Both the position numbers and the translations under genes were made by a program. 64,000 nt of DNA from Paracyclopina nana (taxonomy: Eukaryota > Arthropoda > Copepoda > Cyclopoida > Cyclopettidae), in assembly GCA_019096065.1 (NCBI GenBank), contig JAGUCH010000003.1, positions 3,534,001 to 3,598,000 on the forward strand. Reading direction: 5' to 3'. Positions 4,210 to 40,336 of the stretch are shown one piece after another; position 1 is the stretch's first letter, and the number at the start of each line of letters is the position of its first letter. The notes under the pieces are model-generated. The model did no database searches. It saw only the letters and a list, made by a program, of their open reading frames with translations, and was not told the DNA's origin.

Positions 4210-4690
4210 CATTATCAAACTTGAACACTTGATACAATCCCTCTCTGCTTGGAGCAGCTCTAGCTTCTCATAGTCAAGAACTGTCTTGTCATCTCTTTCA
4301 GTAGTTGTTTCCTCTTCTGCTCTCTTAGAAGAAGGCTTGTCCCTTTGAAGTAATTATCAGCTGATTATTAATTTTTTTCATTTGAAATGTACCTTTGCTA
4401 AGACATATTCAAATGGAAACTTCATAGGAGACGATACAAATGGCGCCTTGGATTGGATAGGGTTGGTCACCAAACACTGAACTTTCATGCCGATCGCTAG
4501 GTCGCTCCTCTTACTTGAAAACCCAACCATTGGATTGAAGTTGACTATTTCCAAAATCGGGTTTTTTAAGCATACCAAAGCATCATCCAAAGCCAAGTGG
4601 GTGACAGGCAGGCTTTTTATCAAATAAATTACAATCACCTGAGTGTATTCTGCTCCAGGAATCTCAGGAGACAAGCTTTTTGCATCTTGA
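4210..4690 (-). pseudogene. Fragment of an unrecognised host-like gene inside the CCCCAC element
   Basis: The stretch 4674-4392 reads as a convincing coding segment (SLPVTHLALDDALVC, NFNPMVGFSSKRSDLAIG, SPMKFPFEYVLAK) followed by a GTACAT donor-like site. About 50 nt on, 4343-4210 again reads open in a lysine/glutamate-rich frame (SSKRAEEETTTERDD, LDYEKLELLQAERD) and stops abruptly at the MITE border. The only acceptor giving a continuous frame is poor, and no start or end is visible. I do not recognise the protein. It is either a captured host-gene piece or the remains of the element's own gene. Confidence 0.35.
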
Positions 4691-5310
4691 ACGTTGGATT
4701 GCAGTGATTTTTAATGATTTTATCTTTGTAGGCAGTTTTTTTAACTTTGGTTTTATCCACCTTTGATTTGGCGAATTTATTTATTATTTTGGCAGCTGAA
4801 TATTTCAGCAGCTGAATTCATTGGGGTCAATTGTTAAATTATTGGTCACCTTAAAACCATCCCTTATAAGCAACTGAAAAATTCAATTGCAATTGGTTTT
4901 GTAAGTTGTCCATTGGTCAAATTATTGTAATTTGTGATGATTTCATTTATCACCAAATTATTTCCATAAATTATAATAATTTGAAAATAATTTGTGTCAG
5001 TTACGGCCAACTTATTCGATTGGCAAATAAGTTGAAAATTATACTTTTATAAGTCATGATAGACAAATTATCGGCCATAAATTACAGTAATTTTTAGGTA
5101 AGCCAAAAATCAGTTTGGCGGCAAGAGCGAAAACACTTAGTGGGGACACAGTAAGGTGGTCGTAAACCCCCAACATGTACATTTTTTCTGAAGGCTTTTC
5201 AGGGCTGCATATGCCTAATTTGATTCCGGCGCCCATCACAACAAAAGAATTTGAAAACGGGTTGTCTAAAACCTGCGTTGACCCGCACCAAGATGCACCG
5301 ACCCGATATT

Positions 5311-5380
5311 TCCCTGACAAGCCCAACCGCGATTCAAAGCGGAGAACACGGTTTGCAGTTCTTGTATACTTTTTGATCCC
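5311..5380 (+). repeat. First copy of a ~70 bp direct repeat flanking the 5498-6039 MITE
   Basis: Begins TTCCCTGACAAGCCCAACC and recurs at 6064-6136 with roughly 85% identity by eye. The two copies lie on either side of the 542-bp inverted-repeat element. Origin unknown; the open frames across this region look spurious. Confidence 0.5.
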
Positions 5381-5497
5381 AAATGATCCTAATGATCCCA
5401 CCCAAAATGAAAGACAGATAAAAAATATGGGAGTCAGGTACTTAGGCAAAGTTTCGCGCATTGCTCAGCAAACCCCAGTTCACTTGACTGCAGAGAA

Positions 5498-6039
5498 GGG
5501 TCACTCCTAACAAAAAAGTTGCATCCATTTCATAGAAACAATAGTCGAATCGACCATCAGAAATTCATCTCCAAATTGCTTCCAAAGCTTCAAAAATACT
5601 CTCTTTTATGTTTTTGGGTTGCATAAATAATAAGTTCTTTTATGTAGCTTCAGATTTCCTTATGAATTCTGTACAAAATGGTTGCTTGAAAATAAGGAAC
5701 GAGTAATTTTTCTCCACTTCCCTTGGACTTCAGCATTCCTCAAAAATACTTTCTAAAAAACACAAGCTGGACAATTTGGAATGATTGTTCATATATCTGC
5801 AATCTTTTGAGATTTGGTGCAATTTTTGTAAGCTATTCTATGGCTATTTTTTGGTATATTTGCATGTTTTGATCAAGTAAGGCCAATGCCTGCTTAAAAA
5901 TCTAATAATATGACATTTTTCTGGGTAAGGAATGAGTTTCATACGATTCATCAAGTTAGGGGAATTTTTACCAGTTTTGAAGTTACAGTGCATTTTTGCG
6001 TATCTTTCACTGATGCGACTTTCTTATTAGGAGTGATCC
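5498..6039. mobile_element. MITE with GGGTCACTCCTAA-type inverted ends
   Basis: The left end (GGGTCACTCCTAACAAAAAA...) and the reverse complement of the right end (GGATCACTCCTAATAAGAAA...) agree over about 28 bp with five differences, bounding 542 bp of non-coding AT-rich sequence. The element sits between two copies of a repeated sequence (see 5311-5380 and 6067-6136). No transposase and no clear target duplication. Confidence 0.5.
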
Positions 6040-25693: not shown

Positions 25694-25797
25694 TTACGTA
25701 GGGTTCTAGATATTCCTCCGCGACTTCGTTTTACTACGTTAGATTTTATTACGTAGTAAAACGAAGTCGTGGAGGAAAATCTCCCTAGGGTTACGTC
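25694..25797. repeat. Hairpin repeat, arms about 47 bp
   Basis: CGACTTCGTTTTACTACGT is followed after about 11 bp by its exact complement. Imperfect pairing (CCTCC, ACGTA-GGG) extends the arms outward to about 47 bp. Possibly a small MITE; no target duplication identified. Confidence 0.7.
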
Positions 25798-25998
25798 AGG
25801 GCAGTCTGTGCGAAAATGATAAGCCCTAACAAACAAATAAGGATATCCCAACGGATAATAAGAAAAAATTAATTACAAAAAAAATAATTTTCAAATGTTT
25901 CAATAGTCTAACGAAGATTTTATTTTCATTTTAAACAAATCCTATCACATTATTCTTAAAATAATAAAGTCAGTATGGTCAAACCAATAGATTTTGGT

Positions 25999-26029
25999 CA
26001 GAGACTTAGAATTATAATCTAAGTCTCTG
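25999..26029. mobile_element. 31-bp palindromic hAT-like terminal-repeat-only element, copy 1
   Basis: The sequence is two copies of CAGAGACTTAGA in inverted orientation separated by only 7 bp. It is flanked by ATTTTGGT on the left and GTTTTGGT on the right (7 of 8 bases identical), consistent with an 8-bp target duplication. CAGAG-type ends and 8-bp duplications are typical of hAT transposons. The same palindrome is at 29803-29832. Confidence 0.7.
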
Positions 26030-26159
26030 GTTTTGGTTAAACTAATTTGCGATGTCAGAACGCCCTTCAAAGAACAAAACACAAAGATCCAAGCTCCAAT
26101 TATTAATCTATTATTATATTAAAAATAAAGTAATGCTTTTTAAAACATTTCATGAACAT

Positions 26160-26349
26160 AAAGTTAGTGTCATTATGCAACATTAACTGCGCTGCCACCT
26201 AAGCAAAATCTGAAACACCATTTTGCTGCTTTTTTTAAAACCTTCGACTTTTTTGCGTAGGTGGTGAGGTAGATAAAAACTCAACATGGGTAAAACGTGC
26301 TAACATGCAACAATAACTTTTATCGCACTTGGGAACATTTCTGGTTGGG
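26160..26349. mobile_element. Partial second copy of the CCCAACCAGAAAT MITE
   Basis: Shares with 3913-4196 the words GTCATTATG-AACATTAACT, CCACCTAAG and AAAACTCAAC, and the right end ATTTCTGGTTGGG. The left terminal repeat is not found, so the copy looks 5'-truncated. Confidence 0.6.
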
Positions 26350-26611
26350 TCATCTAGCGAGACATCTATCGCAAGCAGTCAGCAGTATTGTTATAGGCAA
26401 AATCTTTCAATTCCTTTCTAAAAAAGGTTCTCATTCAGGTTTCATTAACAAGCGCTCGCGCCGTTAACACGGGAAGAGCTAACCTGCTTAGAAGCAAAAT
26501 CTCACCATGATCTCAGTCTGAGTTTAGTGAGCTCGTGTTGCTGTTGGTTATAACATCATGCGTAAAATTGCCCCAAAAAGTAGCTACTTATGTTTAAGAC
26601 AGAAGAGCAAA

Positions 26612-26765
26612 AGCCCAGTTCCAACACGGGATATCAGCATAGTATAGTACGGTAAACCAGTCAAGTCAGGTTGAGCTGAGCGCGCGAGCTAGCTGTGACC
26701 TGACTATGCTAAAAAGTCAAGTTACGTCTCCTGACTATGCTGATTTCCCTTGTTGGAACCGGGCT
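26612..26765. mobile_element. 154-bp MITE with AGCCC(A/G)GTTCCAACA ends
   Basis: The left AGCCCAGTTCCAACACGGGA and the inverse of the right AGCCCGGTTCCAACAAGGGA continue together through ATCAGCATAGT: about 32 bp with three mismatches. The spacer is about 90 bp and non-coding. Confidence 0.7.
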
Positions 26766-27476
26766 AAAGACATATCTTATTTTTTGGTGACTCCACTTTT
26801 ACCCATCTCAACAACCAAATGGTAATTGGGTTTAAATTGCATGCCGAAAATCATTAACTGCATCAAAAGGTTTTTGGTCTTTCTCAGCGGGACCAATGCC
26901 AAATAAGCTCTGTAACTGCAAAATTGTGCCATTTTCAGGTGCTACCACTGAAACAAGCATACCGTAATATACCGCTCGAAATTAGGTTGCACTTATTAAC
27001 AAACGTTACTTTTTTTATTATAAAACTCAAACAACTTCTGGCGTTGGTTTGGCTAATAATGTCATAAGCAAATTGACGACTAAACGTCAACATTTCAACT
27101 CTCTGTTTTTTAGTTTTTTTTGTCTTAATGAATAGTTTTGCTTACAGGCATTCTGCATATTTCCGCAGCTTCATCGTCGAACAACGAAAAAAGGAACAAA
27201 AAGGGTGAGCTCAACATTTGCATGACCGGCAAATTATATTTTTTCCTACGAAAACGCCGCTGGGATTCAAGCTGAACCCGATGGCAACGAAGATAGCGTT
27301 CAATTTCACCCTTCTCGGAAAAATTGGGACACTTTCAAAAATGCAAAAATGCAAAAAACACAATCTTTTTTCTCTTTCCAGTTCTGTCCCTATTTCAAGT
27401 GGTATCATTTCCGGTAATATGGATTTTTTAAGCGCTTTCCCACTTCAGGCATCAGCTATAAATGGTCTATTTTTAG

Positions 27477-29623
27477 AACGATCCTTGTCCAGCTACGCCA
27501 CGAAACGGAACTTGCTACACTAGCGATGAATGCTCTCAGAAAGGTACAAACTCAAAAATGGCATGCAAAAAAGTCACTTCTAGATTGAAGACCTGCTTTC
27601 GTAGGTGGAACATCGGGAGGATCCTGCGCCAACGGCTTCGGAGTGTGCTGCATAAGTAAGCATTCTTTTCTGGGTTGAGATTCATGCTTCATGTATTTTA
27701 CAGTTCAGTTGAGGTGCGGACAATCAGCGAGTGACAACACCACTTACTTGACAAACACCGCCCCCTTGCAAAGCTCAACCTGCTCCTACAAAGTGTGTCC
27801 CTCAAATGCAAACATATGCCGAATCAGATACGACTTCATGGTGAGTTCATCCTGATCTCCAGTACCGAACTTTGAGGACCTTTTCTAGTTGCTTTTCCTC
27901 AGGCTTTCAATCTAGCGCAGCCAACGAACGTTCAGCCGGTTGCTACAGTCGCTCCCATAAAAAACGCACCAGGTATTTTCCAGAGTTGAATGTTAAAACC
28001 AGCGATCTCATCACGAATAGTATCATTCAGCCGTATCAAACGGAAACTGCGTCACGGATACATTTTCCATAAGTGCGCCCGGAACCGTGGGTTCGCCCAT
28101 AATTTGCGGCGATAATACAAACTATCACAGTAAGTGGAAAACGCGCATGCTTTTCACAATTATCCGCCATCACCTGATTGTTTTCGCAGTGATTCTCGAT
28201 GCTAACTCGGAATGCCACACGGTGACGTTCAACATTGGCGCGGCCGGCAACGCGCAACGAACTTGGGACATCGCAGTCAGACAATACGGCTGCGGAGCCG
28301 AAGACATTTCCGGTGAGATAAATACGTCCACTTCAAAGGTAATTGATTGACAACGACCGATTTAGGGCCCCCGGGATGCCTGCAGTTTTACACCGGAAAT
28401 ACTGGAGTCATTCAAAAGTAACTATTAAATTGCCGCACTGCTGGCGTAGCTGCATCATTTTGTCCATTCCAGCTTCAACTTCCAGCCAGGAGCGACCAAA
28501 GTCGGGTCAAACTGTAAGCATGCAAGCTAGCTTATTTGGAATGCAGAGACAGAAAAACAGGTTACTTTTGCAGTTCCTCATTTGGCCAACCAATACTACG
28601 ACATATGCTTCAGACGAGAAGTGGCCAAAAATGTCATTTGCTATAGTGTTGCGATTGGCGTTGTCGGAGGAGGAGGCGCGGCATTGGCCAACCAAGATTC
28701 TTTTGGTCTAAGGTACAAGTTTTAAGTTTGCTCGGGGTCAAAATTAGGAGCCCGTTGAGACAATGCATTGAGTTTTTGCCAAAATGATTGAAGGGGTCAA
28801 TTTTCGGGCTGAAGATCGTTCACGTCCCCTCCCTATTAAGCATACACAAGCGCCTTAAAAACATTGCCGTTGAATGCTCTTTCGGTTTGGGCAGAGCAAC
28901 CGATTGATTGATGAACTCCTGACTTTCAGGGTTGCCTTCAATAAAAATAATGCGCATGCCAAAATCCTTCTCCAATTTTAGCTCGGTAAAATCCGTCGTA
29001 GTCGCAGGAGTCGCCATAGCAGTCGCCACAAGCGGAACGGATGACGCATGCTCCTCTGATTACATAGAAGTAAGCATATACACCATCTTGAGCGCTAATT
29101 AATTGCATAATGAGGCGAAGTTTCATCCGATGAGCAAATGCACAAACTTGCGCGTGACTTTTACAGATTCCCAATGGAGAATTGAAAGCTGCTGCTCTCG
29201 CATCAGTGATGAATTTTCGAGCTCCTTTGGTACCAATACTGTTTAACGCAGCAACCACTGCAACTAAGTTTTGCGGGCGTTTCTTATCCAACGCCGTAGG
29301 TGCCGCGGCCAATGTTTCAATCTGCAGTAAGTATTCAACATTTCCTTTTCCTGCGCTGAATTAACGCGGCCAAAAATAACCTAGCGCGCTTTCCGGGGCC
29401 AATTTTGATTTGGTGACAGCCAAGGGACTTTTCTGTCTTTTCAGCTAAAGTGGCTCCTTTCAAGCTGAGGGTGAATTTTGATGAAGTCGAAGTCACCAGC
29501 TTGGGTGTCGTAAACGCAGGCGCAGGCGGAGCGGGAATAACTCCCGCTGAAGCAGCTGTTTTGGAAGATCAGCTGTTTCCAACCGGAATTGTCGGTTTTC
29601 AGCTGGCATTCAGCCAATTTTAG
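27477..29623 (+). CDS. CUB-family secreted protein B, 5' end unresolved
   Basis: About 12 short exons read in phase from 27477 (NDPCPATPRNGTCYTSDEC) to the TAG at 29621-29623. Successive pieces: GGTSGGSCANGFGVCC; CSYKVCPSNANICRIRYDFM; NGNCVTDTFSISAPG with SPIICGDNTNYH; TWDIAVRQYGC; PPGCLQFYTGNTGVI; VPHLANQYYDICFRREV; CSSDYIEIPNG; and FCGRFLSNAVG, then a last exon ending GIVGFQLAFSQF. This is the same Cys-rich head plus CUB-like architecture as the gene at 22.5-24.1 kb and, unlike it, keeps the CSSDYIEIP and FCGRF elements. The function of this arthropod family is unknown; secretion is expected. The start codon and signal peptide lie upstream on exons I could not fix. Internal ORFs in other frames (for example 28087-28350) are shadows. 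Confidence 0.8.
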
Positions 29624-29802
29624 CTGCTAGCTAGCTCGCAAGAATTGAAAGTCTAGCCGAAAATTGACTAGTTTGTTGATGCGTGATAAATAAAGATAAT
29701 TGCAAATTCGACTTCTTGACCGTTTGCTCATTCTACTCGACATGTAAATGAAACAGAATGCGTTACTAAAAAACCCCACTTACCACAAATTGTAGCCGAA
29801 TG

Positions 29803-29832
29803 CAGAGACTTAGATTATAATCTAAGTCTCTG
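29803..29832. mobile_element. 30-bp perfect palindrome, hAT-like terminal-repeat-only element, copy 2
   Basis: CAGAGACTTAGATTA is followed immediately by its exact complement. It is bordered on both sides by the identical 8-mer GCCGAATG (29795-29802 and 29833-29840), a perfect 8-bp target duplication. It matches the palindrome at 25999-26029. Confidence 0.8.
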
Positions 29833-30499
29833 GCCGAATGGCAGCTCGTTTACTTGTTTGCCGGCTTTAGATTCTGTAGGCTTGTGACTTCTCCATTCCA
29901 AAGAATTTCCTTTTCCAACCCCAAGAGAAAATCAACTGTACTCATTTAAAATTGGTCCAGTAGAGATCTAAGTAGGGTACATGCTGTATTTTGGAACTGA
30001 GTTGAGTTCTGAGAAAGATCTTTTAATCAAAATCATAGTCAGTACCGCTTAAAAACATTGACAAAAAAAGTCATTAAAACATTTGGGATAGTAAATCCGT
30101 TAATGACTACTTATTTTGCGGCAGTTGCCTAGCGAGGATTTAGGACAACAGCCGGTGGCGAAGAAGCCGCACAAGTAACGTAAAACTTTTAAAAATAACT
30201 TGATCCCTTCTCATCTAGGCAAGTAAGCATTGCACTGCACTGCACTGCTAAGGCGTTACGTGATTCTGCGTAAAATTCAACTTCAGAGTTATAAATGAAG
30301 TTCATTCGGCCATTTAAAAATATCGTTAAATGGCAAGTGTCAATAAATGACCATGCCAGTAGCTCGTTTTGGAGTTGATCAAAAATGGGTCTTTTTGGCT
30401 GTTTTGACTACTTTTCGGCTCTTAAAGTGTTAGCAACATCGAAATCTCCAAAGTGTGGCCAAGTTACTAGATAGACATAGAAGAGTTGGCAATTCCAAC

Positions 30500-39013: not shown

Positions 39014-39312
39014 TTATTCACTAGTACAAAGAAGAAAAAGCGCAAAATTCCTTCGTTATCATTTGGATTATTCATCAGTTTAGAACTTCGCGTGCTATCA
39101 ACTCTGTCATCATTAGTTACTATGTTATATCTTTCGATTATTAAACAAGGCATGAAAAAAACATTCTCTGGTAGCTCTAGTGTGCCTGTCATTGGGAACA
39201 GACTACAGAGACTTAGATCAAATCATGCTCCCAAGCCTCTTATTTGTGAATTGATGGCATTGCATTTATCTGCTTTTATGTCATTTTGAGTGCAAGGCTT
39301 TTTAAAAAAGGG

Positions 39313-40201
39313 TACATACTAAATACCGCACACAAACGCAACGCAACGAACACTACTAAATACCGCACACTACTAAATAAAAATACTGCTAAACTACTTT
39401 TAATATTATACTACATATCATATCAATGAACTTATCAAACAGGCTTGAAGAAAACACAAATTATTTTTTAGTAACTAGAAACACGAGTAAGCATTAGAAC
39501 ATATTTTAACTTTTTGCAGTTTTTTAGTGTGTGCGGTATTTAGTATGTTTGCCTACTAAATACCGCACACTATGTTAACAGAAATGAATTAATCAAAGGA
39601 TGAAAAATTTGTCTGAAAGAAAGTCCTTTTGTTGTCCAAAATTGCGAAATTGCAGCCCTATAGTTTATATGCCAAAATTAATGATTTTAGCTTGTTCTCA
39701 TATAGCTCAGTAAGGCAGGCAGTAAGCAAAGCAAGGCACTTTGGAAGCTCATAACTCAGTAAGTACTGAGCTGATTGGAACCAAATTTGGAAGTATTCAT
39801 TAGAGTATATTGAATAATGCTGATTTTTCTCCCTTGCTTAACTGATTTGCCTCACTTTCCAGATGAAAATTGGCATGAAGACTCTTCAATATGTCCTTAT
39901 GAATTCCTCCAATTTTGGTTCCAATCGGACAAGTAGATGCCAAGACATAAGCGCGCAAAGTGCCTTGCTTATCTTACAGAGATGTTTATGAGAACAAGCT
40001 TTTAACTAGCCGTGTGAAGCACTAAGTGAAAACAATTTATTTAAAATATGAGAGTATAAGAATAATTGCCAGTCAATTTTTTCAACTGCATATCCATTTT
40101 TTAGCTGTGTGCGGTATTTAGTAGTGTGCGTTGCGTTGCGTTTGTGTGCGGTATTTAGTAGTGTGCGTTGCGTTGCGTTTGTGTGCGGTATTTAGTATAT
40201 A
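39313..40201. mobile_element. 889-bp foldback element with TACTAAATACCGCACAC repeats
   Basis: The 17-bp word TACTAAATACCGCACAC, often followed by AAACGCAACGCAACG, occurs in one orientation at the left and the opposite orientation at the right, with further copies in the middle (about 39527-39571). Inside, AGCTTGTTCTCATA and a GATTGGAACCAAA stretch also pair with inverted copies, so most of the unit can form one long hairpin. Non-coding. It lies between lipin and CEBPZOS. Confidence 0.75.
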
Positions 40202-40336
40202 CGTTAAAAAAGTGATAAAACGGTAGGCTTTATGGAGCTCAACTTTTATCCTTGTTTTCAAGTTAAAAATTTCCGCCAAATTATATGACGTCACTGCACT
40301 GTCGTCACTTACGAAATGTAAACAAAGTTGATCAGG

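Follow-up and report, generated by a model that had tools for sequence, protein, structure and literature searches.

The genome of the copepod Paracyclopina nana contains, within a stretch of 64,000 nucleotides (nt) that we call the window (contig JAGUCH010000003.1, positions 3,534,001 to 3,598,000), two short CAGAGACTTAGA palindromes, one of 31 bp at 25999-26029 and one of 30 bp at 29803-29832. Judged on sequence, both are very probably excision footprints of a transposon of the P superfamily, and the departed element was most likely a copy of a 638-bp non-autonomous family or a longer relative. An initial annotation had described the two palindromes with 8-bp flanking repeats matching at 7/8 and 8/8 positions, and we found them exactly there; the exact arms that it assigned to both exist only in the 30-bp copy, the 31-bp copy being imperfect. 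The two sites consist of the following features.

25991..25998, unstranded, left 8-bp target duplication of footprint 1, ATTTTGGT, matching the right copy at 7 of 8 positions
25999..26029, unstranded, putative excision footprint 1, a 31-bp imperfect palindrome (L072), from the stub-junction analysis
26030..26037, unstranded, right 8-bp target duplication of footprint 1, GTTTTGGT, 7 of 8 against the left copy
29795..29802, unstranded, left 8-bp target duplication of footprint 2, GCCGAATG, 8 of 8
29803..29832, unstranded, putative excision footprint 2, a 30-bp perfect palindrome (L073), stubs of 18 and 18 nt with an overlap of 6
29833..29840, unstranded, right 8-bp target duplication of footprint 2, GCCGAATG, 8 of 8

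The letters of both palindromes can be accounted for by the ends of one transposon family (family 1), whose two ends differ at nt 16-17 and are here called A (CAGAGACTTAGATTACTAGAGAAGCGAA) and B (CAGAGACTTAGATTATAAGAGAAGCGAA). Footprint 1 is made up of 12 nt of one end (25999-26010), a filler A (26011) and 18 nt of a B-type end (26012-26029). Footprint 2 fits two 18-nt B-like tails with TTATAA in common at 29815-29820, and its letters are equally given by an A-type stub of 15 nt and a B-type stub of 18 nt that have TTA in common. With up to 2 mismatches allowed, the window has 5 occurrences of the 15-mer of these ends where 0.15 would be expected. The arms of the two palindromes make up four of them, and no partner was found near the fifth, at 39206.

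We searched the whole assembly (92 Mb in 10 contigs) for further copies. The exact 15-mer CAGAGACTTAGATTA was found 96 times and its reversed control not once. Of these occurrences, 74 make 37 pairs. Six of the pairs are scars, 30-47 bp long, and 31 are elements between 557 and 6286 bp in length, so that longer elements with the same end do exist, as the initial annotation had envisaged. Among the 22 unpaired occurrences, seven lie either in small sites of the set described below (window 25999, L028, L033, L039, L042, L053) or at L037, a 451-bp element whose partner end has 3 mismatches. Eight are single ends (L023, L031, L035, L038, L041, L047, L050, L055), and L013, which stands outside the count, is perhaps a scar whose left stub is nearly absent. 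At six loci (L045, L048, L051, L060, L061, L062) the 15-mer sits within a separate repeat, behind AATTATAC; that repeat could contain a related end or a very small scar, and the six loci were left out of the set of tiny sites.

A search for two facing ends, CAGAGACT-N(0-30)-AGTCTCTG, revealed 41 places genome-wide, and its reversed control 2. With a spacer of 31-60, three places emerged, L009, which was already counted, and two new scars; the control gave 1. Our set of 44 tiny sites comprises the 41 places, the two new scars and L042, where the partner of the 15-mer is mutated; L009 is measured in it at its full 47 bp. Flanking 8-bp repeats with at most 2 mismatches were present at 39 of the 44 sites and perfect at 28, whereas only 1.4% of the swapped-flank controls (42 sites) reached 2 mismatches or fewer. 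This excess of matching flanks bears out the view of the initial annotation that the palindromes are transposon ends within real target duplications. As for empty sites, which it had thought of as orthologous ones, we have paralogous copies without the insert for at least 2 footprints (L086, L089). At L125 (C2:7175869-7176361), GTTGAAGC, a 35-bp scar, GTTGAAGC, an intact 434-bp element and GTTGAAGC follow one another, apparently two insertions into the same 8-bp target, one of which has since gone. Seven of the loci (L075, L076, L077, L081, L085, L086, L094) lie inside intact elements of these families or within a few hundred bases of them.

The full-length relatives fall into several families with similar ends. 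In family 1, 17 of the 31 long exact-end pairs measure exactly 638 bp, and the 8-bp duplications of the P superfamily are perfect in 25 of the 31 pairs above 500 bp and have at most 1 mismatch in 28; one of the 31, L052, has a left end like the L045-type repeat and a duplication with 3 mismatches in 8, and is perhaps no genuine element. A second pattern, CAGAGACTTATAT, was found at 271 places genome-wide and its control at 3; it is carried by elements of about 434 bp (ends CAGAGACTTATATAACAAGAGAAG / CAGAGACTTATATAGAAAGAGAAG) and of 458 bp (CAGAGACTTATATTTTAAGAGAAG at both ends, the two ends being identical for 27 nt). In this family 2 the duplications were perfect in 13 of 19 fetched copies, with 1 mismatch or none in 18. 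All of these ends have a conserved CAGAGACTTA, then a variable stretch, then AGAGAAG further in. Footprints (36) and intact copies (47) have the same duplication columns, G-T-T on the left and A-A-C on the right, which fits one kind of transposase making both. An earlier profile had averaged both strands and thereby forced symmetry; the unaveraged analysis kept the same columns. Single 8-mers were not clearly more self-complementary than the columns predict (shuffles at or above the observed value: 0.63 for footprints, 0.08 for intact copies).

Duplications of 8 bp and a CAGAG start are features of hAT elements, and the initial annotation had assigned the palindromes to hAT elements cut down to their ends. 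Since 8-bp duplications are also common to P elements, they do not tell the two superfamilies apart, and the coding sequence between the ends was decisive. L018 is a 4876-bp element with a AATTAATC duplication at either side. A Pfam scan of its stop-free pieces revealed THAP (E = 2.6e-13), TNP-like_RNaseH_N (2.1e-28) and the TNP-like GTP-binding domain (1.2e-11), together with a weak C-terminal RNase-H piece (17.5 bits against a curated cut-off of 24), and listed no hAT domain. The sole match of one L018 piece among solved structures was the P transposase 6p5a (E = 5.3e-15). TNP-like_RNaseH_N has 11 matches genome-wide; the second-best copy, on C5 (1.6e-28; assigned on this domain alone), is enclosed by two CAGAGACTTATATTTTAAGAGAAG ends at a distance of 5308 bp, with ACTGAAAC as the flank on either side, and no matching end was found within the 901 bases taken for a copy on C3. 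Between these ends we found P-type domains in place of a hAT transposase. Because this holds for two families, a hAT origin is hardly conceivable, and the domains indicate that the source elements of both families are P-type, with the THAP domain, RNase-H core and GTP-binding insertion seen at L018. The 6286-bp copy, L056, has at 4379-6029 on the minus strand an open reading frame for a DDE_Tnp_4 transposase and another for a THAP domain, which look like a nested transposon of another superfamily.

We read the tiny sites as excision footprints because their stubs end at the known cutting depth of P transposase, their joins vary from site to site, and intermediate sizes are unseen in the lists examined. 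According to PMC7776569, the two cuts of P transposase are staggered, one strand being cleaved at the outer boundary of the end and its complement 17 nt further in, and the accounts in PMC2895639 and PMC5466332 have the donor chromosome retain 17-nt 3' tails after excision. For the sites with duplications, we measured stubs as exact matches to known end sequences, which gave 78 stubs at 39 sites. They range upward from 5 nt (a mutated stub, at L042); 18 stubs stop at 18 nt, 3 at 17 and one at 19, with none longer. The lone 19-nt stub is ambiguous, its last letters being common to the partner stub, and it comes from an end variant known from a single intact copy that was added for the final count. 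When just the six common 28-nt end sequences are used for matching, no stub exceeds 18 nt, a length reached by 17 of 74 stubs (37 sites). Stubs of 18 nt occur on all five common end sequences, 4 on A, 4 on B, 2 and 2 on the ends of the 434-bp elements and 6 on the 458-bp end. Two duplications around two stubs no longer than the tail were found at 39 of the 44 sites, counting the one with the ambiguous stub of 19.

The similarity between ends extends to nt 27-28, so the length of the repeat does not set the limit on the stubs. This finding also bears on the idea that a hairpin of the two inverted repeats lost its loop during replication. The ends are indeed inverted repeats, as such a hairpin needs, but those of the 458-bp family are identical for 27 nt and the matching scars stop at 18. 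Scars keeping 27-28 nt of each end were absent from the 44 sites, and we give hairpin-loop loss a practically negligible probability.

The distribution of sizes is also informative. In family 1, none of the 37 exact pairs is 48-450 bp long, and in family 2 none is 60-290 bp among 36 neighbouring plus/minus pairs (two of them more than 70 kb apart) from 100 of the 271 places. An internal deletion in place, in which gap repair from a sister copy is interrupted after restoring no more than the extreme ends of the element and the break is then joined, would keep the duplication and both ends, and most products in wild-type flies in the Drosophila assay, as reported in PMC2895639, come from such incomplete synthesis followed by joining; elements of 303, 371, 451 and 557 bp do exist in the present genome. 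Gap repair predicts stops scattered along the element, however, whereas the stubs accumulate at 18 and end there, and no sizes from 59 to 303 bp appear in the lists examined (spacers above 60 were searched through exact-end pairs only). For the tiny sites we therefore consider it very improbable.

The junctions between the stubs are diverse. Of the 39 joins, 20 contain a filler of 1-26 nt, 16 show the two stubs overlapping by 1-8 nt, and the remaining 3 are blunt. L082 fits two 458-family tails joined on TTAA, and L083 and L096 are each one letter away from it. L009 (C1:1679845-1679891) is a 47-bp scar with two tandem right-end copies between perfect duplications, as if a tail had been copied twice. 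Where both stubs could be typed without the overlap within the main families, one of each end was paired in 4 of 4 cases (L067, L070, L075, L129), L067 being typed by one letter per stub; L071 agrees when the overlap letters count, and L088 and L130 agree at one mismatch, judged by eye.

These observations argue against mobile minimal elements, or a transposase that inserts two short end stubs at once with the gap joined afterwards. Duplications of 8 bp and empty paralogous sites would fit any insertion, and the two-family stubs of L080, described below, would fit the pairing of unlinked ends. However, the junctions mostly vary between sites, the typeable pairs hold one of each end, and PMC1562414 states that transposition or excision of the Drosophila P element requires no less than 138 and 216 bp of its ends. 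We regard this explanation as highly improbable. The proposal of the initial annotation that the inserted element consisted only of two abutting terminal repeats is, likewise, probably wrong, given the stub limit, the varied joins and the lack of intermediate sizes in those lists; under the footprint reading, the 8-bp duplication was made by the element that departed.

Excision would have proceeded in four steps. First, an element would insert and duplicate 8 bp of target, as the flanks indicate. Second, a P-type transposase would make a staggered cut at each end, severing one strand at the outer boundary and the opposite strand some 18 nt further in, leaving an approximately 18-nt 3' tail of transposon sequence on each broken chromosome end; this step is suggested by the stub lengths and the known enzyme. 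Third, the tails would be joined with no re-synthesis of the element, either directly, through an overlap of 1-8 nt or with filler; here the junctions are seen and the repair pathway is inferred. The scar would finally retain both duplications and at most 18 nt per end, and presumably be immobile without the rest of the ends.

Several observations weigh against this reading or limit its precision. First, good duplications are wanting at 5 of the 44 sites (L074, L076, L092, L094, L099). Second, allowing one mismatch blurs the stub limit, with 2 of 78 stubs then at 19 and 11 of 78 at 20; we take these to be chance letters past the limit, nt 20 being A. Third, the search pattern demands 8 nt per side, so shorter stubs are under-counted. 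Fourth, 17 and 18 nt are hard to tell apart: 22 stubs reach 17, of which 19 also match at 18 and 1 at 19, but every end has A at nt 18, filler is often A, and the palindromic joins are the same with 17. The stub counts favour a tail of 17-18 nt, with 18 as the best estimate. Fifth, filler templated nearby was clear in just 3 of 12 tested sites (L009, L089, L093), the 12 being taken from 13 sites with filler of 4 nt or more, with L042 left out. Sixth, each of the three best transposase matches has an in-frame stop. Seventh, L080 1501-1530 (C2:10947602-10947631), a 30-bp scar in a perfect duplication, has a family-1-like stub and a stub like the 458-bp family (family 2b); it goes beyond any one known element, and it would take two elements, or an end type not yet sampled, to account for it. 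Finally, this is a single genome, so that excision is inferred from anatomy.

Two further repeats were noted in the window. The stretch 25708-25782, an 85% inverted repeat shared with the interior of the 844-bp element L010, is probably another small transposon, and 39313-40202 contains CTAAATACCGCACAC-type repeats, which have similar counterparts at L070, L085 and L089.

The closest known counterpart is P-element excision in Drosophila. Junctions reported in PMC2895639 consist of the 8-bp duplication, at most 17 nt of one end, a blunt join, short overlap or insertion, at most 17 nt of the other end and the duplication again, and the P{wa} assay (PMC2895639, PMC5466332) describes the same duplications, stubs up to the tail length, and overlaps or insertions. 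The tails there are given as 17 nt, compared with our best estimate of 18, and the tables present laboratory events in flies without Rad51, whereas the sites here are inherited and natural. Anopheles gambiae, as described in PMC1562414, likewise has coding P elements and short non-autonomous relatives with common ends and 8-bp duplications; its miniature inverted-repeat transposable elements (P-MITEs) are at least 205 bp long, unlike the tiny sites here, and the word "footprint" is absent from the main text of that paper. The account of zebrafish Pdre2/THAP9 in PMC10983969 likewise gives a P-type THAP transposase, 8-bp duplications and internally deleted relatives, but Pdre2 differs in its 13-bp repeats starting CATACC, and the zebrafish enzyme excising Drosophila P elements in fly cells yields larger flanking deletions. 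Our literature searches found no natural P footprints outside Drosophila among the papers that they listed. The class of footprint is thus known from Drosophila, and what is new is a large natural set from several P-type families.

The limit of the stubs at 18 nt points to a long staggered cut common to several P-type families, a kind of cut that PMC10983969 calls atypical. More tentatively, with slightly less than an even chance, all five common ends would be cut at nt 18, one nucleotide further in than in Drosophila and on the inner border of the fast-changing stretch of 7-8 nt between CAGAGACTTA and AGAGAAG. The letters of that stretch would form the end of the 3' tail and decide the scar, TTATAA or TTAA tails giving perfect palindromes that recur in the 458-bp family, and the scars would be a natural record of P-type cleavage.

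The excision reading explains tiny genomic palindromes that could otherwise be mistaken for regulatory sites or miniature transposons. The long stagger of P-type cleavage was worked out on the Drosophila enzyme, and inherited scars would extend its reading to other genomes. From such scars one could measure, with no need of an active enzyme, the cut depth, the repair signature and the past excisions of a P-type family in any genome.

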